DNA from: Cryomorphaceae bacterium
Lineage (GTDB): Bacteria > Bacteroidota > Bacteroidia > Flavobacteriales_D > Cryomorphaceae
Direction: 5' to 3'
DNA length: 40,280 nt
Assembly: GCA_003565555.1 (NCBI GenBank)
Contig: PXBH01000029.1
Span: forward strand, 1-40,280
The position numbers and the translations under genes were made by a program. The notes under the pieces were generated by a model, which was not told the origin of the DNA, searched no databases, and worked only from the letters and a program-made list of their open reading frames with translations. Positions 4,205 to 32,733 of this stretch are shown piece after piece; the stretch's first letter is position 1, and each line of letters starts with the position of its first letter.

Positions 4205-4748
4205 ATTGAGCTTTCATAAAGCGGAGTATCTCGGCCGTTTCGTTTGCATCGAGCTGCATGCCGAATCGCACGTAACGCCGGTTCGTCTTGAATCCGATCC
4301 TTTCACCGCCCAGTACCCACCATTGGTCCTCGTAGATGTAGGTGAAGGATTTCTCTGAAACAGGTACTTTCTCCGGTTCGCCGATTTCAGTCAGCTTATA
4401 GGTTGCGGTCTTCGCCGGACCGCCCGTTTTGCGGATGACGGTTACCTGCTCGGGACCGATATCAATTGCCTCGTACCCCCCTTTTCGGTAATGCCATACG
4501 CGGCTGATTTTCCACATAAAGTAGGCCCAAAACACGAGAAAAACTACCAGAAAAAGCTTCATTTCCCGATCATCGGTGTTCAGCAGTTCGTAAATGACGA
4601 CCGCTCCGCAAAAAAGCCAGGCAGCGATCCAGGCCGTAAGCGCAGTCACCTTCCACCGCTCGGAAACTCCCGAGATAACGATTTTTGCTCCGCTTTTTTC
4701 ATTGGAGATACGCACGCGTTCGCTGACTTGTTTGGTTTTTTGCTTCAT
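4182..4748 (-). CDS. Small membrane protein, function unknown
   Basis: The 188-residue protein has a basic N-terminal tail, two transmembrane helices (about 34-55 and 64-83) and a C-terminal beta-rich soluble part of about 100 residues. The tail region (VTVIRKTGGPAKTATYKL and following) resembles a PH-like or membrane-associated stress-domain pattern, but I do not recognise a family. Its ATG overlaps the bshA stop as ATGA (4748-4745), so it is translationally coupled to bshA and probably co-transcribed. The 3' end overlaps the convergent CoA-transferase gene by 23 nt. No role in bacillithiol metabolism is known for such a protein; any link is inference from coupling. Confidence 0.75.
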   Translation of the reverse strand: MKQKTKQVSERVRISNEKSGAKIVISGVSERWKVTALTAWIAAWLFCGAVVIYELLNTDDREMKLFLVVFLVFWAYFMWKISRVWHYRKGGYEAIDIGPEQVTVIRKTGGPAKTATYKLTEIGEPEKVPVSEKSFTYIYEDQWWVLGGERIGFKTNRRYVRFGMQLDANETAEILRFMKAQFRKARGN

Positions 4749-5890
4749 TCTTCCACGGCCTTTCTGTGCTTGTCCAGAACACGGTCGTAGAGCGCAGTGT
4801 ACAGGGGCAACACCTTTTTAATACTAAACACATCGGCCCTGCTTCGGGCCTGTTCTTTGAAGCGGTTCAGAACGGCATCCTGCTCCAGCATCGACACGGC
4901 ATAATCTGCCATCCCGTCCACATCGCCCACGGGGCTCAAAAACCCGGAGAACCCGTGTTCATTCACTTCAGGCAAGCCGCCGCGGTCTGAAGAGATTACC
5001 GGCACCCCGCAGGCCATGGCCTCCAATGCTGCAAGCCCGAAACTTTCAGACTCCGAAGGAAGCAGAAACAAATCAGAAATATTCAGCACCTCTTCCGGCT
5101 TTTTGAGCTTTCCGATAAAGAAGGTGTCTTCGCAGGTACCCAATTCTCGGCAGAGGAGTTCGCTGCGGTAGCGTTCGGGACCGTCACCTACCAAAAGCAG
5201 TTTGGCGGGAATTTTATCGGAGATTTTTTTGAAGACGCGTACCACATCTCCCACCCTTTTCACAGGTCTGAAGTTGCTGATGTGGGTAATGATGCGTTCT
5301 CCGTTCGGTGCATAAGCGGCCCTGAAATCCTTTTCGGGCTTCGGGAGGTAATGCTCCGGGCATATGAAATTCGCAATCACTTCGATCTCCCGCGTCACAC
5401 CGAAGTGGGCATAGGTATCTTTCTTCAGGCTTTGGGATACGGCAGTTACGGCATCGCTGTTGTTAATGGCAAAAGTAATGGCGGGCTCAAAGGAGGGATC
5501 GCGCCCCACCAGGGTAATATCTGTACCGTGCAGGGTGGTGATGAAAGGAATTTTGATCCCTTGCGACTCGAGGATGCGCTGAGCCATGTAAGCCGCAGAA
5601 GCATGCGGAATAGCGTAATGCACATGAAGGAGGTCAAGGCCTTCGTTTTTCACCACAGATACCAGCTTGCCCGCCAGCACAGTCTCGTATGGCGGGTACT
5701 CAAACAAGGGGTATTCTGAAACGATGACCTCGTGGTAAAACAGATTTGACGTAAAAGAGCCGAGCCTGACCGGCTGGCTGTAGGTGATAAAGTGCACCTG
5801 ATGTCCGCGTTCGGAAAGGGCTTTTCCCAGTTCGGTGGCCACCACGCCGCTTCCGCCGAATGTGGGATAGAGTACAATGCCTATTTTCAT
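4745..5890 (-). CDS. bshA: N-acetyl-alpha-D-glucosaminyl L-malate synthase BshA
   Basis: This 381-residue GT4 glycosyltransferase joins GlcNAc from UDP-GlcNAc to L-malate, the first step of bacillithiol synthesis. BshA-specific stretches are clear: GIVLYPTFGGSGVVATELGK at the N-terminus, HFITYSQPVRLG, EYPLFEYPPYE and LLHVHYAIPHA. The C-terminal domain has the GDGPER loop and the E-x7-E motif (E282, E290) in SESFGLAALEAMACGVP. The start is the ATG at 5890-5888 (MKIGIV) rather than an in-frame ATG 33 nt upstream, because BshA begins directly with this strand and a TATCTTCG box lies just ahead. Bacillithiol is known from Firmicutes and many Bacteroidota. bshB and bshC are not in the window. Confidence 0.93.
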   Translation of the reverse strand: MKIGIVLYPTFGGSGVVATELGKALSERGHQVHFITYSQPVRLGSFTSNLFYHEVIVSEYPLFEYPPYETVLAGKLVSVVKNEGLDLLHVHYAIPHASAAYMAQRILESQGIKIPFITTLHGTDITLVGRDPSFEPAITFAINNSDAVTAVSQSLKKDTYAHFGVTREIEVIANFICPEHYLPKPEKDFRAAYAPNGERIITHISNFRPVKRVGDVVRVFKKISDKIPAKLLLVGDGPERYRSELLCRELGTCEDTFFIGKLKKPEEVLNISDLFLLPSESESFGLAALEAMACGVPVISSDRGGLPEVNEHGFSGFLSPVGDVDGMADYAVSMLEQDAVLNRFKEQARSRADVFSIKKVLPLYTALYDRVLDKHRKAVEE

Positions 5891-5907
5891 AAAAAAAGTT
5901 GGAGGCA

Positions 5908-5915
5908 CGAAGATA
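5908..5915 (-). promoter_or_regulatory. -7 box of bshA
   Basis: TATCTTCG on the minus strand (5915-5908) matches TAnnTT(T/C)G and sits 17 nt before the bshA ATG. No -33 TTTG is found at the right distance. Confidence 0.5.
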
Positions 5916-6063
5916 GCAATCATTTACCGGTCGGGATCGCGCGGTGTTCTGCGCACCGAATTTCCAAAATATGTGAATTGCAAGGCCCAATACGCTCATT
6001 TCCCTGATGATTAATTAACTTCACCGCCTTTCTGCTGAATTAACAAGCAATCAAATTAACCCA

Positions 6064-22448: not shown

Positions 22449-23816
22449 ATGCCGCAAACTGAGGTACTCCTTCCCAAAATGGGCGAAAGCGTCGCCGAAG
22501 CCACCATTACCAAATGGGTAATCAACGAAGGTGACACGATCGAAGCCGATGATCCCCTTGTAGAAATTGCCACCGATAAGGTAGACAGCGAAGTGCCTGC
22601 TCCCGAAGACGGCGTGCTCATCAAGCGGCTCTGTGAGGAAGGAGATGTGGTGGAAGTCGGGAAGCCGATTGCCATTATTGACACGGGCGGTGAGGGAAGC
22701 TCGCCTGCACCTGACAGCACCGATGAAGCAGCCGCGCCCTCGGAGGCGCCCGCAGCTGCCAAAACGGAGGCAGCGAAACCCGCCCCGCAACCTCAACCTG
22801 CGGCAGCCGAAGCCGGCGGGCCTATCGCCCGAACAGGTGAAAGCGGAAGGTTTTACTCTCCGCTAGTGCGCAATATCGCAAGGGAGGAAGGCATCACCAT
22901 GGCAGAACTGGAACGCATAGAAGGCTCAGGGAAGGAAGGCCGGGTGACCAAAAAAGACATTTTGGATTACCTCCCGGAGCGCGAAACAAACGGAGCTGCA
23001 GTGCAGAAGGAATCCGAGCAAGCGCAAAAAACCGCACCCAAGCAGCCCGCTTCCGCACAGAGCACGGCTCCCGCCAAAAAGCCCTCCGCCCCCCTGATTG
23101 CCGGACCCGGTGATGAACTTATGGAGATGGATCGCATGCGCCGCATGATCTCTGACCACATGGTGCACTCGAAATACACCTCCCCGCACGTGACTTCCTA
23201 CGTGGAGGCTGATCTCACCAATGTGGTCACATGGCGCAATAAGTGGAAGAAAAAATTCGAAGAGCGCGAAGGTGAAAAGCTCACCTTCACTCCCATCTTC
23301 ATCGAGGCCATAGTAAAAGCAATAAAAGAGCTCCCGATGGTCAATGTATCAACCGACGGCGAGCGTATTTTGAAAAAGAAAAACATCAACATCGGTATGG
23401 CTACGGCCCTGCCTTCGGGCAACCTGATCGTTCCCGTAATCCACAATGCGGACACGCTCAACCTTGTGGGATTGGCAAAGCGGGTCAACGAATTGGCCGG
23501 GCGGGCGAGAGAAAACAAACTTAAACCGGAGGAAATTCAGGGCGGCACTTACACTGTAACCAATGTAGGCACTTTCGGTAATGTGATGGGTCCCCCCATT
23601 ATCAACCAGCCGCAAACCGCCGTTATGGCCGTAGGTGCCATACGTAAAAAGCCGGCCGTTATAGAGACTCCGGAAGGCGACTTTATCGGCATCAGGCAGC
23701 TCATGTTTCTGTCGCACAGTTACGACCACCGCGTGATTGACGGCGCCTTGGGCGGAAAATTCGTTCGGTTAGTAGCTGATTTTCTTGAACAATTTGATGT
23801 GAATAGAGAAATTTAA
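22449..23816 (+). CDS. 2-oxoacid dehydrogenase E2 (dihydrolipoamide acyltransferase)
   Basis: The 455-residue protein has a single N-terminal lipoyl domain with lipoylated lysine in EIATDKVDSEVP (K44), an Ala/Pro-rich linker, the E1/E3-binding domain (about 137-175; FYSPLVRNIAREEG, GRVTKKDILDYL), a second Ala/Pro/Lys linker and the catalytic domain ending in SHSYDHRVIDGALGG (catalytic His427, Asp431). It transfers acyl groups to CoA in a pyruvate or branched-chain 2-oxoacid dehydrogenase complex. The lipoyl sequence and Bacteroidota habit favour the branched-chain type, but this is not certain. E1 and E3 genes are not adjacent. It follows the glycosyltransferase by 44 nt and its stop overlaps a possible ATG of the next gene (TAATG). 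Confidence 0.93.
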   Translation: MPQTEVLLPKMGESVAEATITKWVINEGDTIEADDPLVEIATDKVDSEVPAPEDGVLIKRLCEEGDVVEVGKPIAIIDTGGEGSSPAPDSTDEAAAPSEAPAAAKTEAAKPAPQPQPAAAEAGGPIARTGESGRFYSPLVRNIAREEGITMAELERIEGSGKEGRVTKKDILDYLPERETNGAAVQKESEQAQKTAPKQPASAQSTAPAKKPSAPLIAGPGDELMEMDRMRRMISDHMVHSKYTSPHVTSYVEADLTNVVTWRNKWKKKFEEREGEKLTFTPIFIEAIVKAIKELPMVNVSTDGERILKKKNINIGMATALPSGNLIVPVIHNADTLNLVGLAKRVNELAGRARENKLKPEEIQGGTYTVTNVGTFGNVMGPPIINQPQTAVMAVGAIRKKPAVIETPEGDFIGIRQLMFLSHSYDHRVIDGALGGKFVRLVADFLEQFDVNREI

Positions 23817-23849
23817 TGCCTCAGCGCAGTTCATCCGAGAGGTTTACCT

Positions 23850-23857
23850 TAGATTTG
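23850..23857 (+). promoter_or_regulatory. -7 box of the first TPR/PD40 gene
   Basis: TAGATTTG matches TAnnTTTG and ends 21 nt before the ATG at 23879. It supports that start over the upstream ATG at 23816, which would lie before the transcript start. Confidence 0.45.
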
Positions 23858-23878
23858 GAAATTCAAGTTTTCCATCGG

Positions 23879-25954
23879 ATGAATCAAAACCTTTTCTCAC
23901 TTGCGCCTGCCGCAGCGATTATAGCTTTATTCTTAAGCTTTAACGGTGCAGCCCAGGAAGACAGTTTCAATACCCGTTTCGGAGAGGCCGTGAAGCTCGC
24001 CGAGGAGAATGAATTGGAAATGGCCCGCCGCATCTGGACAGAATTGGCCAAAAACAACCCGAGCAACGGAAACGTGAACTACCGGGCGGGAATGGCCATG
24101 CTGAATTCCGGAAGCAATAAGACCGCTGCTCTGCCCTATTTCAAAAATGCGGAAAAAATCGGGATTTCAAGAAACTACGACATCTTCAGCCCCCAAGAAA
24201 AAAAATCACCCGCAGAGCTGTATTACCACTTGGGGCTCGCATACCATTTGAATTACAAATTCGCGGAAGCGGAGGAAAGCTTTGAGAAATTTTTGAGACT
24301 TGCAGGTCGCAAGCACTTCCTGCGACCGCGGGCAGATTTGGGCATTCAGCATGCACGCAATGCGCGCGAGCTCATTGACAAGAGGGTAGACTATGAAATT
24401 GTCAATCTGGGGGCGACCATCAACAGCCCCTACCCCGATTTCAGTCCCGTGGTTTCGGTAGATGAGAACGCGCTGTTTTTCACCTCTTCACGGATACGCC
24501 CGGACAGTTCGAATGTCGCGCGCCGCGACCGCGCTACCGGAGAGTACTTCAACGATATTTACGTGTCATACAAAGACCGCCGCGGCGAATGGCAAACCCC
24601 CGAACTCCTCGAAATCAATGAACCTGAACACACTGCCACGGTAAATGTAAGCGCCGACGGGCAAACGCTCTTTATCTACCGCGACGACAACGGCGTGGGT
24701 AATATCTATGAAAGCAAACTGGTTGGGGAAACCTGGACGGAGCCGCGGATGCTCGGAGGAGGTATCAATACAAACAATTGGGAAACCCACCTCGCGATGA
24801 CGGTAGATGAGCAGACGGCCTACTTTGTCAGTAACCGTCCGGGCGGCCTCGGAGGGCGCGACATATACCGTGTCAGAAAACTTCCTACCGGCGAGTGGAG
24901 CGCTGCCCAAAACATCGGTGATGTGATCAACACGCCTTATGACGAAGATGCCGTTTTCATCACCCCTGACGGAAAAACAATGTATTTCAGTTCAGAAGGC
25001 CATAACAGTATGGGCGGTTTCGATGTTTTTTCATCAGAACTGAATGAAGACACCAACGAATGGGGTGCACCCCGCAATATCGGCTACCCCATCAACACCA
25101 CTGATGATGATGTGTTTTTCGTAACAAGCGCCGACGGAAGAAGGGCCTATTACAGCTCGGTGAAAGAAACGGGATACGGGGAAAAGGACATTTACATGGT
25201 CACGTTGCCCGGCACGCGTGAAGTGACCTTGGCCCTCCTTACGGGAAAAATTCTGGCCGCAGAGGGGGCAAAAATACCCGCGGACATCAGCGTGTTGGTC
25301 ACCAATAAAGAAACAGGCCAATCAGATAACTACACTCCGCGCAGCAGAGACGGAGCCTTCGTGGCCATACTTCCCCCCTGCCATCGGTACGAGATCGAAT
25401 ACATTTCACGGGATGTTACCTTGGCCACAGACACTTTTTCGATCGATTGCGACATCGCCTACCAAGAAGTTTACAGAGAACTGATGTTGACCCCCGTAAG
25501 AATAGAAAAAGACGGGACCGCTACCGTGATACGCGACGAGGACGGGGAGATGATCGTAAGTGCGGAAACGGATGTAACCAAACCGGCAAGCTTCAAGCGC
25601 CTCTTCGGATATAATGAGGTTACAACCTCCGCCGAGGAGGAAGTGTTTCAGGTATTCATGAAACGGCTGCAGGAGATTGCCGAGCACAAAGAACGCGTCA
25701 GCATCGAGGTGAGAGGCAGTGCTTCAAAGGTGCCTACGCGCACCCACGGCAGCAATGAGAAATTGGCACAACTCAGGGTAGACAACGCAGTGCAGCGTGT
25801 CAAGAAACATGCCGCGGAAATGGGTATCGACCCGAGCCGACTTGAATTTACCAAAAAAGAAGCCGTGGTTTCGGGGCCCGCCTACGGCGGTGACTTCAAA
25901 TCGGGTAAAGACGCTTACAGGCAATACCAATACATCGAAATAAAGGCGGAATAA
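23879..25954 (+). CDS. TPR/PD40 beta-propeller envelope protein with OmpA-like C-terminus
   Basis: The 691-residue protein starts at ATG 23879, where a signal peptide begins (cleavage after NGAAQ); an in-frame ATG at 23816 would add 21 residues before it. N-terminal TPR-type helices (about 30-150) precede a WD40-like PD40 propeller (about 190-450) with repeats such as SPVVSVDENALFFTSSR, LAMTVDEQTAYFVSNRPGG and AVFITPDGKTMYFSSEGH. A carboxypeptidase-regulatory-like segment follows (about 460-550). The last 110 residues resemble an OmpA-type peptidoglycan-binding domain (VSIEVRGSAS, LAQLRVDNAVQRVKKHA) in degenerate form. This layout is shared with PorE-type proteins that tie the T9SS or outer-membrane complexes to peptidoglycan. 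Its paralogue lies directly downstream. Confidence 0.87.
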   Translation: MNQNLFSLAPAAAIIALFLSFNGAAQEDSFNTRFGEAVKLAEENELEMARRIWTELAKNNPSNGNVNYRAGMAMLNSGSNKTAALPYFKNAEKIGISRNYDIFSPQEKKSPAELYYHLGLAYHLNYKFAEAEESFEKFLRLAGRKHFLRPRADLGIQHARNARELIDKRVDYEIVNLGATINSPYPDFSPVVSVDENALFFTSSRIRPDSSNVARRDRATGEYFNDIYVSYKDRRGEWQTPELLEINEPEHTATVNVSADGQTLFIYRDDNGVGNIYESKLVGETWTEPRMLGGGINTNNWETHLAMTVDEQTAYFVSNRPGGLGGRDIYRVRKLPTGEWSAAQNIGDVINTPYDEDAVFITPDGKTMYFSSEGHNSMGGFDVFSSELNEDTNEWGAPRNIGYPINTTDDDVFFVTSADGRRAYYSSVKETGYGEKDIYMVTLPGTREVTLALLTGKILAAEGAKIPADISVLVTNKETGQSDNYTPRSRDGAFVAILPPCHRYEIEYISRDVTLATDTFSIDCDIAYQEVYRELMLTPVRIEKDGTATVIRDEDGEMIVSAETDVTKPASFKRLFGYNEVTTSAEEEVFQVFMKRLQEIAEHKERVSIEVRGSASKVPTRTHGSNEKLAQLRVDNAVQRVKKHAAEMGIDPSRLEFTKKEAVVSGPAYGGDFKSGKDAYRQYQYIEIKAE

Positions 25955-26014
25955 GCATGAACACTCACCGATCGGCACAGTTATTGAAAACAGGTTCCGT
26001 GAAATCAATGCAGC

Positions 26015-27571
26015 ATGGTTAAAGAGATGAAAGCACTTATCGGATGCTTGTTTATTGTCTTGCTCAGCGCTGAGGTGAGGGCACAAGATCCGAGAATCGC
26101 CGCACAGGCATTCAGTGACGGCAACTATTTTAAGGCCATCGAGCTTTACGTCAAGCTTCTGGGTAAAAATCCGGACGAGATGGACTACAATTACCGCGTC
26201 GGCCTCAGCTACCTTCGCACGAGCATAGAACCCCGAAGGGCCTTGGAGTATTTGCTGAAAGCAGAGAACCACCCCAAATTTCCGCCGGAGGGCTTGCTCG
26301 CCGTTGCAGAAGCATACAGCTATCACCTTCAGTATGATATGGCACTCACCTACCTGAACAAATACCAACAGGAAGGCCATGTCAACAAGAAGACGCGGGC
26401 AGAATTTGAGCGGCTCAAGGCCAATTACACAGTAGCACTCGAACTTTTGAAATACCCGGCAGATGTGACGTTCAGAAATTTGGGGCCGATGCTGAACTCC
26501 GAATATCCGGACTACCACCCTTTCGTAGACAAAAACGAGCGAATACTGATCTTTACGTCAAGGCGCAAATCGAAACCGGGCGCGGTTCCGGAATTCGACG
26601 GTTACTTTCCCTCCAACCTTTACATGTCAGAGAAAAATGCTTCGGATGAATGGAAAGAGGCCGTAAAGCTTTCCGACAGGATTAACCCCTCCTATGACGA
26701 GCAAGCCGTGGGGCTCTCGGATTCGGGCGACAGCTTATTCTTCTACATTGACCACATCAATTCCTTCGGCAACATCTATCTCAGCGAGCGTATCCGCGGA
26801 GTGTACGGTGATCCTAAGGCGCTGAATGAGGCCGTAAACACCGAGAATGTTGAATCTGCCTGCTCCATATCACGCGACGGAAATACGCTGATCTTTTCAA
26901 GTGACCGGCCCGGGGGATACGGCGGCTTAGACATTTGGATGCGGCGAAAGCTGCCTACGGGAAAGTGGGGCGAGCCCCTGAACTTGGGCCCGGAAATCAA
27001 TACCCCTTTTGATGAGGACTTCCCCACCCTTTCCGGTGACAACCGAACCCTCTACTTCTGCTCTGAAGGCCACCCCGGAATGGGAAAGTTTGATCTCTTT
27101 TTCTCGACATGGGATCCCTATGACAATTCATGGGGCCACCCCCAAAATCTCGGTTTTCCCATCAACACCCCCGGCGACGAAAAGAGTATATCATTCAACG
27201 GATACGGAGATCGGGCCTATGTGACGGCCTTGCGCCCCGAAGGAAAAGGTGACCTCGATATTTACGAGGTGAACTATGTCAACGTGAGCGGTGCAATGCC
27301 CGCCGTATTTTTGGTAAACGCACCTGAATTGGAAGAAGCTGCTGCCGAAAACAATACCCGTATTCGCGTAAAAAATGAGGCCGACGAACTGATCGGCGAG
27401 TACGCTCCGAATCGGGTTACGGGAAAATATGTGCTCGCCCTCTACCCCGGGAAATACACGATGACCTTAAAGGCGGACGGTTTTCAGCCTTACAGCGAAC
27501 CCCTCATCGTGAACAATGCCCACCTCAGGCAGGAAAAAAACCTGAAAACGATTAACCTAAAGAAACAATGA
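26015..27571 (+). CDS. TPR/PD40 beta-propeller envelope protein without OmpA domain
   Basis: The 518-residue protein has a signal peptide (start ATG 26015, or ATG 26027 four codons later; cleavage after VRAQ), TPR helices (about 25-145) and a PD40 propeller (about 160-425; YHPFVDKNERILIFTSRR, CSISRDGNTLIFSSDRPGG, TLSGDNRTLYFCSEGHPG). A C-terminal beta-sandwich follows (GKYVLALYPGKYTMTLKADG) and ends without an OmpA domain. It is a clear paralogue of the preceding gene (shared NTPxDED and SEGHxxMGxFD blocks) 60 nt away. The stop overlaps the next start as ATGA. It probably sits in the periplasm bound to an outer-membrane partner; that partner is not in the window. Confidence 0.87.
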   Translation: MVKEMKALIGCLFIVLLSAEVRAQDPRIAAQAFSDGNYFKAIELYVKLLGKNPDEMDYNYRVGLSYLRTSIEPRRALEYLLKAENHPKFPPEGLLAVAEAYSYHLQYDMALTYLNKYQQEGHVNKKTRAEFERLKANYTVALELLKYPADVTFRNLGPMLNSEYPDYHPFVDKNERILIFTSRRKSKPGAVPEFDGYFPSNLYMSEKNASDEWKEAVKLSDRINPSYDEQAVGLSDSGDSLFFYIDHINSFGNIYLSERIRGVYGDPKALNEAVNTENVESACSISRDGNTLIFSSDRPGGYGGLDIWMRRKLPTGKWGEPLNLGPEINTPFDEDFPTLSGDNRTLYFCSEGHPGMGKFDLFFSTWDPYDNSWGHPQNLGFPINTPGDEKSISFNGYGDRAYVTALRPEGKGDLDIYEVNYVNVSGAMPAVFLVNAPELEEAAAENNTRIRVKNEADELIGEYAPNRVTGKYVLALYPGKYTMTLKADGFQPYSEPLIVNNAHLRQEKNLKTINLKKQ

Positions 27572-28407
27572 CCAAGCTCAACCTTGAGCGTCCCCTCGCC
27601 TTTTTTGATCTCGAAACCACCGGCGTCAATGTCGCCTCAGACCGCATCGTTGAAATCGCTGTTCTCAAAGTTTTTCCCGACGGGAGAATTGAAAGAAAAC
27701 CTGACCCTTCGGGCGGAGGACCCAATCGCTTTCTGATCAATCCCGAAATGCCCATCCCCCCGGAGACTTCTGCCATTCACGGGATCCGCGATGTAGATGT
27801 GATCGATGCACCTACCTTTAAAGATGTAGCCGACAAACTTTTCAAATTCCTGTACGATGCCGACTTGGCGGGATATAACTCCAACAAGTTTGATGTACCC
27901 ATCCTCGCCGAGGAATTTTTAAGGTGTGGGATCGAATTCAGCATTGAAGGACGCAACCTGATCGATGTGCAAAACATCTTCCACCTTATGGAGCAACGCA
28001 CCCTTCGGGCGGGGTACAAGTTCTACTGCGGCAAAGAGCTCGATAATGCCCATGAAGCCATGGCGGATGTAGAGGCGACTTACGAGGTATTTCTGGCCCA
28101 GATCGAGCGGTACAAAGACACCGAGATCGAAGACCGCGAGGGCCGTTTGTACACGCCTGTAGTCAACGATATGAAGCACCTCCACGAAGTGTCTCAGCGC
28201 CATAAAAATGTCGATTTTCTCGGGCGTTTTGTCTACGACGAAAACGGAACCGAAGTTTTCAACTTCGGAAAGCACAAAGGCCGGCCCGTGGAGGATGTAC
28301 TCAGGGAGGAACCCGGGTATTACGGCTGGATGCTGAACGGAGATTTTCCCTTGTATACCAAGAAGGTGCTCCGCGACATCAAGGAGCGTATGAGCTACGC
28401 ACAATGA
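27568..28407 (+). CDS. DEDDh 3'-5' exonuclease (DnaQ/epsilon-like) with DUF3820-type C-terminus
   Basis: This 279-residue protein has a complete DEDDh active site: D14 and E16 in AFFDLETTG, D109 in NSNKFDVPIL, and H162 and D167 in NAHEAMADVEAT. It would remove nucleotides from 3' ends of DNA or RNA. The C-terminal 70 residues (FNFGKHKGRPVEDVL, YYGWMLNGDFP) match a small module often attached to Bacteroidota exonucleases. It is not the polymerase III epsilon subunit proper, since no polymerase-binding tail is evident. ATGA overlaps join it to the gene before and the gene after. Confidence 0.92.
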   Translation: MTKLNLERPLAFFDLETTGVNVASDRIVEIAVLKVFPDGRIERKPDPSGGGPNRFLINPEMPIPPETSAIHGIRDVDVIDAPTFKDVADKLFKFLYDADLAGYNSNKFDVPILAEEFLRCGIEFSIEGRNLIDVQNIFHLMEQRTLRAGYKFYCGKELDNAHEAMADVEATYEVFLAQIERYKDTEIEDREGRLYTPVVNDMKHLHEVSQRHKNVDFLGRFVYDENGTEVFNFGKHKGRPVEDVLREEPGYYGWMLNGDFPLYTKKVLRDIKERMSYAQ

Positions 28408-29018
28408 AAATCATATGTGTAGGCCGGAATTATGCCGAGCACGCCCGTGAGCTGAATAATGAGGTGCCTTCGGAACCGGTGATTTTCCTCAAACCGGACA
28501 CCGCACTTTTACCCAAGAACCACCCCTTCTTCTACCCCGACCACACCGCCGACCTGCACCACGAGGCTGAAATCGTATTGCGGATCAATCGCTTGGGGAA
28601 ACATATCGATCAGGCCTTTGCGCACAAGTATTACGATGAAATCGGCTTCGGAATAGACTTCACCGCACGCGATGTGCAGCAGAACTGCAAGACCAAAGGA
28701 CTGCCGTGGGAAAAGGCAAAAGCCTTCGACCATTCCGCGCCCCTCTCCCCTGTCTTCCTTCCGCTTGACAGTCTGCCCGACCCTCAAGCGATCCGCTTTT
28801 CGCTTAAAAAAAACGGTGCGGAGGTACAATCCGGCAATACTGCGGATATGCTCTTCGGCTTCAACGCCTTGATCGCCCATATTTCAAAGTTTTTCACCTT
28901 GAAAATCGGAGACTTAATCTTCACCGGCACACCGAGCGGAGTGGGCCCGGTATCGGTTGGCGATCACTTGGAGGGGTTTGTCGAAGGAAAAAAACTGCTC
29001 GACCTGAAAATTAAATAG
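28404..29018 (+). CDS. Fumarylacetoacetate hydrolase family protein (FAHD1-like)
   Basis: The 204-residue protein is a short FAH-fold enzyme like FAHD1 acylpyruvases and oxaloacetate decarboxylases. It shows VGRNYAEHARELN at the N-terminus, metal ligands E54 and E56 in HHEAEIVLRI and D85 in GFGIDFTARD, the KAKAFDHSAP segment, and the terminal GDLIFTGTPSGVGPV. It would cleave or decarboxylate 2,4-diketo acids with Mg2+; the exact substrate is open. It begins in an ATGA overlap with the exonuclease gene, last in a three-gene coupled unit. Confidence 0.92.
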   Translation: MKIICVGRNYAEHARELNNEVPSEPVIFLKPDTALLPKNHPFFYPDHTADLHHEAEIVLRINRLGKHIDQAFAHKYYDEIGFGIDFTARDVQQNCKTKGLPWEKAKAFDHSAPLSPVFLPLDSLPDPQAIRFSLKKNGAEVQSGNTADMLFGFNALIAHISKFFTLKIGDLIFTGTPSGVGPVSVGDHLEGFVEGKKLLDLKIK

Positions 29019-29119: not shown

Positions 29120-31054
29120 ATGGGGGCAATGGATGTATTCGTAGTGGAGACCAAGGAGCAGCGCAAAGCCTTTGTTTCTGCGATTTTAAATGACATGAAA
29201 GCGCTGGAATACATGCTTGATAAGGGCATGTTCGAAAGCGGTGTAGCCCGTATCGGAGCGGAGCAAGAGCTTTGTTTTACAGACCGTCACTATCGGCCGG
29301 CCATGGTGGGACTCGACATCCTGAAAGATATCGACGACCCGCATTTCACCACCGAATTGGCGAAATTCAATCTCGAAGCCAACCTCGATCCGCTGATTTT
29401 TAGCGGTAATGCCCTAAGTACTATGGAAAGGCACCTTACCGTACTGCTCGATAAGGCAGCCAAAGCAGCGGACAACCACAAAGCAAAACCGGTGCTCACA
29501 GGTATACTGCCCACCATCCAAAAAGGGGACTTGGATTTTTCCAATATCACTCCCTATGATCGGTACCGTGCCTTGAACAACGCCATGATCAAAATGCGCG
29601 GCGGAGACTTCGAATTCAACATCAAGGGTACGGATGAGCTGATCACAAAACACAGCACCATGCTCTTCGAAGCTTGCAATACGAGCTTTCAAATTCACCT
29701 GCAAATAGACCCGGACAACTTTGTAGACCAATACAACTGGGCCCAAGCCATTGCAGGCCCCGTGCTGGCCGCATGCTCAAACTCCCCCCTGCTCTTCGGC
29801 AGAAGGTTATGGGAGGAATCCCGGATAGCTGTATTTGAGCAAACCGTCGATCTGAAAAACCTGAATAATCCCGAACGTGAGATTAAGAGCCGCGTCGATT
29901 TCGGCACAGATTGGCTCAGAGAGAGCGTAACGGAAATTTTCAAATACGACATTGCCTACTACAAGCTCTTGCTCGCGGGCCACATTGATGAAGATGCTCT
30001 CGAGCAATTGCGCAACGGAAAAATCCCCAAACTCCGTGCGCTTAACCTGCACAACGGAACCATTTACAAATGGAACAGGCCCTGCTACGGAATCACCAAC
30101 GGGAAACCCCACTTGCGGATAGAGAATCGCTATGTGCCCTCCGGTCCTACCATCGTGGACGAGATTGCCAATACCGCTTTTTGGCTCGGCCTGATGGCCG
30201 GAATGCCCGAGTACGTGAGCGAAATCGATGCGCACCTGGACTTCGACCATGCCAAACACAACTTCCTCAAAGCCGCACAAGTAGGTCTCAGTGCACAATT
30301 CAAGTGGACTGATAATAAAGTCCGCACGGCCGAAGAGCTTATCTTGGGCGAGCTCCTTCCCATAGCGCGAAGAGGTTTGGCGTCAAAAAATATTGACCCG
30401 GCAGACATTGACCGCTATCTCGACATCATTGAGGCGCGCGTAATCGCACACCAAACGGGAAGTATATGGCTCAACAATGCATTCACCAAATTGATCAAGA
30501 AAGCTTCACGTGAAGAAGCGGTGGTGGCGGTAACTGCGGGAATGCTCAAGCGCCAGCAAACCGGACAACCGGTGCACACCTGGGATTCTCCGCATATTCG
30601 CGAAAGCGGATCATGGTCCAATAAGTTCAAATACGTGCGCCAAATCATGTCGCAAGAACTGTATACCGTGCAGGAGGAGGACTTGGTAGAACTCTCAGCC
30701 AGTGTAATGGACTGGAGAAAAATACACCACGTTCCCGTGGAAAATGAGCAAGGTGAAGTGGTGGGTATCATCTCCTCAGCAGATATCCTGAAGTATTACT
30801 GCAAGAAGGTGGACCACGAAGGCAGCGAAATCACCGTGAACGACATCATGAGTAAAAATCCCGTGACGGTGACCCGTGACACCCTGACCACGGACGCGCT
30901 GAAATTGATGCGTAAGTACAATCTGGGCTGCCTGCCGGTAGTGAACGGCGTGAAACTTGTGGGCATAGTGACGGAATACGATTTTATCTGTATTGCGCAA
31001 GATTTGTTTGACGAACTGGAGAATGTTGAAAAAGAAAACCATCACCCTGTTTGA
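29120..31054 (+). CDS. GCS2-type carboxylate-amine ligase fused to two CBS domains
   Basis: Residues 1 to about 490 of this 644-residue protein match the glutamate-cysteine ligase family 2 (YbdK/EgtA-like) fold: GAEQELCF (E48, E50), ELAKFNLEANLDPLIF, CNTSFQIHLQI, NSPLLFGRRLW and SIWLNNAF. Such enzymes activate a carboxylate with ATP and couple it to an amine. Residues about 505-630 are a tandem CBS pair (IMSQELYTV, VVGIISSADILK; DIMSKNPVTVTRD, LVGIVTEYDF), which usually binds adenine nucleotides and regulates the attached enzyme. The start is ATG 29120 or ATG 29129, three codons later. Its 3' end overlaps the aspartoacylase-like gene by 32 nt, indicating tight coupling. True gamma-glutamylcysteine synthesis is doubtful given bshA in the same genome; the substrates are unknown. 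Confidence 0.8.
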   Translation: MGAMDVFVVETKEQRKAFVSAILNDMKALEYMLDKGMFESGVARIGAEQELCFTDRHYRPAMVGLDILKDIDDPHFTTELAKFNLEANLDPLIFSGNALSTMERHLTVLLDKAAKAADNHKAKPVLTGILPTIQKGDLDFSNITPYDRYRALNNAMIKMRGGDFEFNIKGTDELITKHSTMLFEACNTSFQIHLQIDPDNFVDQYNWAQAIAGPVLAACSNSPLLFGRRLWEESRIAVFEQTVDLKNLNNPEREIKSRVDFGTDWLRESVTEIFKYDIAYYKLLLAGHIDEDALEQLRNGKIPKLRALNLHNGTIYKWNRPCYGITNGKPHLRIENRYVPSGPTIVDEIANTAFWLGLMAGMPEYVSEIDAHLDFDHAKHNFLKAAQVGLSAQFKWTDNKVRTAEELILGELLPIARRGLASKNIDPADIDRYLDIIEARVIAHQTGSIWLNNAFTKLIKKASREEAVVAVTAGMLKRQQTGQPVHTWDSPHIRESGSWSNKFKYVRQIMSQELYTVQEEDLVELSASVMDWRKIHHVPVENEQGEVVGIISSADILKYYCKKVDHEGSEITVNDIMSKNPVTVTRDTLTTDALKLMRKYNLGCLPVVNGVKLVGIVTEYDFICIAQDLFDELENVEKENHHPV

Positions 31055-32231
31055 TTTTACGGAAGGGCACGCCGTACAGATTTCGAGGGTGATCGCCGAG
31101 ATCAAAGGCAAACCCTCAGGACCGACTGTTTTTTTCATCGGCGGTATGCACGGAAATGAACCCACCGGTGTACTGGCGCTCAAGCATGTGATGCGTGAAG
31201 TAGAGCGTCTGCAGCCACTTCTTCGGGGCAATGTATACGCCCTCGCGGGAAACCTGACCGCTCTGGAACGCGGGGAGCGGTTCATTCAAAACGACCTGAA
31301 CCGGGTATGGCATGCAGATCAGGTAGAGCGGGCAAAAAAGCGAGACTTCCACCCCACCGAAATTATCAATGAAGTCGAAGAGCAAATCGAACTCTGGGCG
31401 AAGATTGACAATATCATGCAGAATTCGACGGGGCCTTTCTTCTTCGTAAACCTTCACACCACCTCCGTTCAGAGTGTTCCTTTTGTCACCATGAGTGACA
31501 CGATCATGAACCGAAAATTTGTCAGTAAAATCCCTGTGCCCATTGTCCTCGGAATCGAAGAATACCTCACCGAGCCCCTCCTGAGTTACGTCAATGAATT
31601 GGGATGTGTATCGGTGGCCTTCGAAGGCGGTCAGCACAGCGAGGCCGCATCCGTGCACAACCACGAAGCAATGATCTGGCTCAGTTTGGCCTACAGCGGC
31701 GCCATGAAGCAAATAGAAATACCCGGGTTTCGCAAACACGCGGAGCACCTGAAGTTAAGCACAGAGAAAAACAGCGCCGTATACGAAATCAGGTCTCGTC
31801 TGGGCATCGAGCCCGGACAAATGTTTCAAATGATGCCCGGCTTTGTCAATTTCCAGGAAATCAAACAGGATCAACCCCTCGCTCGGCTGGACGGGAAAAC
31901 GGTGCGCGCCGAGGAAGACGGGATGATCTTCATGCCGCTCTATCAGGCGCAGGGCAGCGACGGCTTTTTCACCATCCGAAAAATACGCAGGTTCTGGTTG
32001 GGTGTATCTTACGTATTTCGCAGGCTCAAACTGTTCCGATTGCTCAGGTTTCTTCCCGGAGTGCGTCCCTTTATGGACAGTGATGAGACCATGGTGGTCA
32101 ACACGGCCGTGGCCAAATGGTACAGCACGGAAATTCTACACCTCATGGGCTACCGCCGAAAGAAAAAACGCGGAGGCCTCATTTTATTTATGCGGCGCAA
32201 ATACGATTTTAAAGGTCCTCGAAACCGGTGA
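31023..32231 (+). CDS. Succinylglutamate desuccinylase/aspartoacylase family zinc hydrolase
   Basis: The 402-residue protein has the AstE/AspA (M14-like) zinc set: H43 and E46 in GGMHGNEPTG, H145 in FVNLHTTS, the substrate-carboxylate segment RFIQNDLNRVW and the general base E201 in AFEGGQHSE. The family hydrolyses amide bonds of N-acyl amino acids. The C-terminal 150 residues hold a beta-barrel part (about 265-320) and a basic tail (YRRKKKRGG) longer than in AspA. The start is ATG 31023 (MLKKKT); an upstream ATG at 30993 would deepen the overlap with the ligase gene from 32 to 62 nt. The pairing with an amide-forming ligase suggests opposing reactions on one compound; this is inference. Confidence 0.85.
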   Translation: MLKKKTITLFDFTEGHAVQISRVIAEIKGKPSGPTVFFIGGMHGNEPTGVLALKHVMREVERLQPLLRGNVYALAGNLTALERGERFIQNDLNRVWHADQVERAKKRDFHPTEIINEVEEQIELWAKIDNIMQNSTGPFFFVNLHTTSVQSVPFVTMSDTIMNRKFVSKIPVPIVLGIEEYLTEPLLSYVNELGCVSVAFEGGQHSEAASVHNHEAMIWLSLAYSGAMKQIEIPGFRKHAEHLKLSTEKNSAVYEIRSRLGIEPGQMFQMMPGFVNFQEIKQDQPLARLDGKTVRAEEDGMIFMPLYQAQGSDGFFTIRKIRRFWLGVSYVFRRLKLFRLLRFLPGVRPFMDSDETMVVNTAVAKWYSTEILHLMGYRRKKKRGGLILFMRRKYDFKGPRNR

Positions 32232-32244
32232 AACCTCAACCACA

Positions 32245-32733
32245 TTGACGACCCCCGAAGAACTGAAGCAAAAGGCCTCCGGAAAAAAGAAGGAAAACCG
32301 AAAGTTTCTCCAATCCTTGAAAAAGCAAAAGTCCGGAAACACGGACCGCGAATTTCACGAGGCACATGAGGAAGTCTTCGCCTGTACGGACTGCCTTAAA
32401 TGCGCCAATTGCTGCAAAACAACGGGACCGCTTTTTAATGCAAGAGATGTGCAGCGTATCGCCAAGCACCTTAAGATGCGTCCTTCAGAATTCACGGAAT
32501 CCTATTTGAGACTCGACGAAGAGGGCGATTACGTGCTGAAATCGGTGCCCTGCCCCTTCCTCGGCGCCGATAATCTTTGCGGAATATACGAGGTGCGCCC
32601 CAAAGCATGCCGCGAATACCCGCATACAGACCGCCGAAATATGCAGGAAATCTTCAGCCTGACCCTGAAGAATTCTGAAATATGCCCTGCTGTATTTGAC
32701 ATCCTCGAGAAAATGAAGGCCTCCCGGCGATAA
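32245..32733 (+). CDS. YkgJ-type cysteine-cluster protein
   Basis: This 162-residue protein starts best at TTG 32245. The residues that follow (TTPEELKQKASGKKKENRKF) match the opening of homologous Bacteroidota proteins as I recall them, and 13 nt separate it from the previous stop. A longer in-frame ORF from 32002 lies wholly inside the upstream gene with unlikely composition. The cluster motif (CTDCLKCANCCKTTGP, CPFLGADNLCGIYEVRP, KACREYPH) has eight cysteines that probably bind zinc or an iron-sulfur centre. The molecular role of the family is unknown. It is the third gene of the ligase/hydrolase cluster. Confidence 0.88.
   Translation: MTTPEELKQKASGKKKENRKFLQSLKKQKSGNTDREFHEAHEEVFACTDCLKCANCCKTTGPLFNARDVQRIAKHLKMRPSEFTESYLRLDEEGDYVLKSVPCPFLGADNLCGIYEVRPKACREYPHTDRRNMQEIFSLTLKNSEICPAVFDILEKMKASRR

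Follow-up and report, generated by a model that had tools for sequence, protein, structure and literature searches.

A conserved ligase-hydrolase gene pair of Bacteroidota, predicted to form and cleave an amino-acid amide

Introduction

When the gene of a putative amide-forming enzyme runs into that of a putative amide-cleaving enzyme, do the two products act on the same bond? The question is raised by a locus in a draft genome of a Cryomorphaceae bacterium (GCA_003565555.1, 237 contigs), on contig PXBH01000029.1, of which positions 1 to 40,280, a stretch of 40,280 nucleotides read on the forward strand, are referred to here as the window. A preliminary description of positions 29120 to 32733 had proposed a coupled unit of three genes, namely a GCS2-type carboxylate-amine ligase with two CBS domains (gene 1), a zinc hydrolase of the AstE/AspA type (gene 2) and a YkgJ-type cysteine-cluster protein (gene 3). 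The coordinates in that description are correct, as are the 32-nucleotide overlap of genes 1 and 2 and the 13-nucleotide gap that separates gene 2 from the TTG start of gene 3. The analysis presented here shows that genes 1 and 2 are a real, conserved and uncharacterised unit, and that the triple with gene 3 is not. No paper on the pair or on the ligase family was found in the literature searched, which did not extend to the 2009 overview of amidoligases by Iyer et al. The two genes are arranged as follows:

29120..31054, forward strand: gene 1, a carboxylate-amine ligase domain with kinship to GCS2, followed by two CBS domains, 644 amino acids
31023..31054, forward strand: overlap of gene 1 and gene 2, 32 nucleotides
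31023..32231, forward strand: gene 2, an AstE/AspA-type zinc hydrolase, 402 amino acids from the ATG codon at 31023

Linkage and distribution of the gene pair

The closest relatives among the genomes compared are uncultured Flavobacteriales, and in relatives of the same order a full-length gene 1 is followed directly by gene 2 at every locus with enough sequence. Loss of the neighbourhood in close relatives had been named in the preliminary description as an outcome that would speak against a unit; the neighbourhood of genes 1 and 2 is instead conserved. Among 395 Bacteroidota genomes, gene 1 is found in 116 and gene 2 in 59, with gene 1 present in 56 of the 59 genomes that carry gene 2, as compared to 60 of the 336 that do not. 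A comparison of coordinate lists places the two genes side by side on the same strand, ligase before hydrolase, in 51 of the 56 genomes with both, a pairing that is far above chance and that bears out the proposed juxtaposition of a ligase and an amide hydrolase.

The manner in which the two reading frames meet was read closely in 34 pairs, where the longest frame of gene 2 opens at points ranging from 112 nucleotides inside gene 1 to 60 nucleotides after it, and where predicted ATG starts of gene 2 inside gene 1 are frequent. Order and overlap are conserved over eight Bacteroidota families and one planctomycete (a Pirellulaceae contig, L004, carries the pair), with a ninth family possessing a distant hydrolase. 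The genes that surround the pair vary by family, and include an exonuclease and an FAA hydrolase in the family of the window, PriA, ScpB and a pseudouridine synthase in family f35, and MBOAT or MsrB elsewhere. Because these neighbours differ between families, the pair alone is constant.

In family f29, the ligase has no CBS domains, and in the four genomes looked at the next gene downstream encodes a very remote relative of AstE; the HGNE, D-NR, DLH and LECG motifs are kept in the three genomes for which the sequence of this relative was read. On the tree, the f29 ligase branches outside all of the CBS-bearing ligases. The coupling of ligase and AstE-type hydrolase would be either ancient or have arisen twice, and both histories point to a functional link.

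At three closely read loci of family f35 (genera g155 and g186; L104:8015-11882, L105:7665-11510 and L106:7410-11250), one hydrolase gene is preceded by a tandem of two different ligase subtypes. On the tree, one copy falls among the remaining f35 ligases and the second among those of distant families, a split that suggests transfer into the cassette.

The ligase domain

29120..30589, forward strand: ligase domain of gene 1, residues 1-490

The GCS2 assignment made in the preliminary description is sub-threshold for the window protein, which scores 19.1 bits against the Pfam GCS2 model (PF04107) for a cut-off of 21, and draws its strength from relatives and from the comparison of profiles. Several members of the gene 1 family pass the same cut-off (with scores of 31.6 and 30.8 bits, for instance), and the GCS2 match is found at E <=0.1 in 13 of 17 gene 1 relatives. 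To compare profiles with hhalign, 60 gene 1 homologues from Bacteroidota, Pirellulaceae and Actinomycetota were set against Escherichia coli YbdK and 25 other GCS2 proteins, and the assignment survived, the two profiles aligning over 354 columns with a probability of 96.9 and an E-value of 3e-10.

Residues E48, E50, E86, H193, R333 and R337 are invariant in all 60 homologues, the actinobacterial and planctomycete sequences included, and E335 is present in 59, with aspartate in the remaining one; the W318-N319-R320 stretch is likewise conserved in 60/60. By analogy with the superfamily, E48, E50, E86, H193, R333, E335 and R337 are presumed to be metal- or ATP-site residues. The profile match to the GCS2 superfamily (E. 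coli YbdK and its kin) extends across most of the domain, and the GxExE, HxH-type, NSP and (V/R)E-R motifs align between the two: E48 and E50 correspond to GxExE, H193 to the HVH region, N221-S222-P223 to ASP, and E335 and R337 to V-E-V-R of the GCS2 proteins. Unlike its superfamily, however, the gene 1 protein is ~120 residues longer, possesses invariant blocks of its own (WNRPCYG and LRIENRY(I/V)PSGPT), and in most cases carries two fused CBS domains, with an AstE-type hydrolase as its partner. A search of the Protein Data Bank with the ligase-domain profile gave no match, and an AlphaFold model of the domain, built from an alignment of few sequences, had a mean predicted local distance difference test score (pLDDT) of 47, too poor for a fold search or for comparison with the glutamine-synthetase-like fold of the GCS2 superfamily.

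No relatives were recovered from the viral contigs scanned. In a genome of the same genus, a frameshift or an assembly gap interrupts the ligase gene in the interval from residue 283 to residue 330 (L049:6713-8378). A ligase relative without CBS domains lies shortly upstream of a nickel-hydrogenase cluster on plasmid p1 of Streptomyces fungicidicus (L123:5971-13437), a placement that may be incidental, and a haloarchaeal hypothetical protein from Natrinema (L188:5401-6954) is distantly related to the ligase domain, with 27% identity over 88% of the f29 query.

The CBS domains

30635..30994, forward strand: CBS1 and CBS2, at about residues 506-625 of gene 1 (PF00571, E-value 9e-27, two stretches)

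Both CBS domains called in the preliminary description are recognised by Pfam and are well formed. The further suggestion that the CBS pair could switch the ligase with energy state is only partly consistent with their conservation. In CBS2, the ribose-contact motif T-x-x-D is kept (T618xxD621), with aspartate in 43 of 55 homologues and asparagine in 11, whereas CBS1 has no conserved ribose-contact motif, D555 being found in 14 of the 55. The CBS region is absent in the deep branch represented by family f29, which nonetheless retains a hydrolase neighbour, and in the actinobacterial relatives of the ligase. As these ligases lack it, the CBS region is probably a regulatory addition and not part of catalysis.

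The zinc hydrolase

For gene 2, the assignment to the AstE/AspA type stands without modification, since the Pfam model AstE_AspA_cat (PF24827) is matched at 54.7 bits for a cut-off of 25 (E-value 1e-14) and the catalytic set is intact. Residues H43, E46, D91, N93, R94, H145 and E201 do not vary across the 32 sequences compared; of these residues, H43, E46 and H145 are the presumed zinc ligands, D91-N93-R94 the presumed substrate-type motif and E201, by analogy, the presumed catalytic glutamate. The zinc-site and DLNR motifs are shared with aspartoacylase and succinylglutamate desuccinylase, and the HGNE, DLNR and DLH regions can be aligned to solved aspartoacylases. Unlike these enzymes, gene 2 has conserved motifs of its own (DxxxNR, FEGGQH and FMPLYQ) and often a basic C-terminal extension. 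It also falls far below the NCBIfam equivalog cut-offs, with 44.1 versus 180 bits for aspartoacylase and 32.1 versus 305.65 bits for AstE. Gene 2 is apparently an active member of the AstE/AspA family.

31974..32051, forward strand: basic amphipathic stretch within the C-terminal extension of the hydrolase, residues 318-343

This stretch has a net charge of +6 and a hydrophobic moment of 0.61 over 18 residues, and might serve as a membrane or surface anchor. The extension with its basic amphipathic stretch is found in many gene 2 orthologues, and short forms without the stretch also exist. An AlphaFold model of gene 2, again built from few sequences, was too poor for a fold search (pLDDT 49).

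Proposed function of the pair and alternative explanations

The homologies and conserved catalytic residues of the two proteins, the overlap or close spacing of their genes and their joint occurrence in genomes lead us to infer a chemistry, together with its substrates, direction of flux, nucleotide sensing and a shared transcript. Gene 1 would encode a GCS2-superfamily carboxylate-amine ligase that uses ATP to join an amino acid to an amine, most likely through a side-chain carboxylate as gamma-glutamyl ligases do, with CBS2 probably binding an adenine nucleotide and tuning the activity of the ligase. Overlapping translation of the same transcript would yield the product of gene 2, a zinc hydrolase that would cleave the amide, or a derivative of it, and so return the building blocks. 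On balance, we lean slightly towards this reading, that of a two-gene metabolic unit in which the ligase makes an amino-acid amide and the hydrolase cleaves that same amide or a derivative. The hydrolase is almost never found without the ligase, whereas the ligase often occurs alone, and for this reason the ligase product is the most likely substrate of the hydrolase. Glutamate is activated at its side-chain carboxylate by GCS2 relatives, and AstE relatives remove a succinyl group, which a gamma-glutamyl group resembles. A gamma-glutamyl-type product is, for these reasons, the most natural guess.

Several observations weigh against such a unit. The counts of genomes are not independent observations, as the genomes are related to one another; the GCS2 score of the window protein itself does not reach the cut-off; and in the five genomes with both genes in which the pair is not adjacent, all from family f18, the two genes are present and unlinked. 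In three of the 395 Bacteroidota genomes gene 2 occurs without gene 1. More extensive is the separation in a large sister clade (gene 1 of families f25, f30, f37, f41, f47, f51, f53, f59 and f63), for which no gene 2 orthologue was found anywhere in the genomes searched, and some of which have other AstE relatives. The existence of this clade, with a ligase and no gene 2, implies that the hydrolase is not required for the function of the ligase.

The many genomes with gene 1 and no gene 2, as well as the unlinked genes of family f18, are what would be expected if the two genes were merely co-transcribed and belonged to unrelated pathways. Such an arrangement is, however, very improbable given the adjacency and co-occurrence of the genes, as gene 2 is rarely found without gene 1, and as order and overlap are kept over eight Bacteroidota families and a planctomycete (and in a ninth family with a distant hydrolase) while other neighbours change. 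A pathway in which the enzymes act in sequence, and not as a cycle, is a better contender, although we consider it unlikely. Here, the ligase would use an acyl-protected amino acid or attach a protecting group, and the hydrolase would deacylate the compound at a later step. The desuccinylases and deacetylases of the AstE/AspA family, whose members are N-acyl-amino-acid hydrolases, act in this way in amino-acid and osmolyte routes, and the failure of gene 2 to reach the cut-off of either equivalog leaves the acyl group open. Yet across families no gene for an acyltransferase or for another pathway step keeps a place beside the pair, and in a large clade the ligase is retained although the hydrolase is missing.

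A third possibility is modelled on RimK and RimB, a proven ligase-hydrolase pair for the same bond whose genes are encoded together (PMC11957791). By this account, the ligase would add an amino acid to a protein or other large molecule and the hydrolase would remove it, with the basic amphipathic tail of gene 2 perhaps holding the hydrolase to a surface. RimK-RimB is the nearest working analogue of the pair, as there too one kind of bond has its ligase and its hydrolase encoded together, but the proteins belong to other families than genes 1 and 2, RimK being an ATP-grasp ligase and RimB a retropepsin (PMC11957791). In the same genome as the window, on another contig (L190:3848-6243; G000:C179), an AstE_AspA-type gene is divergent from a RimB-type zinc protease/retropepsin gene that is followed by RimK, so that AstE-type hydrolases here adjoin amidoligases of two different folds. 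The closest kin of gene 1 are nonetheless found in the GCS2 superfamily, where the enzymes characterised so far work on free amino acids, and no conserved protein partner is encoded nearby; reversible tagging thus appears a rather remote prospect, more so than a sequential pathway. As for a RimK gene near the pair, which the preliminary description had thought worth tabulating, none is present in the window, and the RimK-domain matches of the genome are on other contigs.

The GCS2 kinship of gene 1 could also be taken to indicate a glutathione or gamma-glutamylcysteine system. The draft genome has no GCS1-type ligase or GshF, its sole glutathione-synthetase-type (GSH-S_ATP) match is the RimK gene itself, and BshA is encoded in the window:

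4745..5923: bshA (TIGR03999, E-value 1e-160)

On these grounds glutathione itself is an unlikely product, as had been argued beforehand from the presence of bshA, and of all the explanations considered, a glutathione or gamma-glutamylcysteine system is the one to which we give least credence.

Returning to the two-gene unit, the pair provides a testable hypothesis, that of an enzyme couple for a conjugate, and both enzymes are small enough to purify. The ligase family is widespread, given its presence in 116 of the 395 Bacteroidota genomes sampled. It is conceivable, as a more tentative extension, that an undescribed amino-acid amide, such as a gamma-glutamyl conjugate serving as a store, protectant or signal, is made in a large part of the Bacteroidota by a nucleotide-gated ligase, and that many of these bacteria degrade it with a dedicated hydrolase translated from the same message.

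Neighbouring genes

Three further genes flank the pair in the window:

32245..32733, forward strand: gene 3, a CxxCxxCC (YkgJ-type) protein with a TTG start, 13 nucleotides after gene 2
27568..28407, forward strand: exonuclease (RNase_T) upstream of gene 1, rejected as part of the unit
28404..29018, forward strand: FAA-hydrolase-family protein upstream of gene 1, rejected as part of the unit

The domain call for gene 3 in the preliminary description holds, the Pfam CxxCxxCC model (PF03692) being matched above its cut-off at 1e-15. Its inclusion in a three-gene unit does not, as among the relatives compared gene 3 is linked to the pair in only one genome, of the same genus. Orthologues of gene 3 (45-67% identity, plus one weak partial match) are located at unrelated loci in 12 of the other genomes tested, and gene 3 was rejected as a third member. 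It is an ordinary conserved protein, a plain member of the YkgJ-type family with no link to genes 1 or 2 outside the genus, and a chance neighbour of the pair; the cysteine-cluster gene was thus dropped as a wrong lead.

The upstream exonuclease and FAA hydrolase were likewise rejected as parts, their order being conserved only in the same family and missing at one locus of that family (L038). The proximity of PriA, ScpB and the pseudouridine synthase was put down to housekeeping synteny within one clade, and a helper role for them was rejected. Further upstream in the window, at 23816-27571, are two tandem related genes of 712 and 518 amino acids, each of which matches the orthologues of the other in tblastn searches, and whose place upstream of the exonuclease is kept within the same family.

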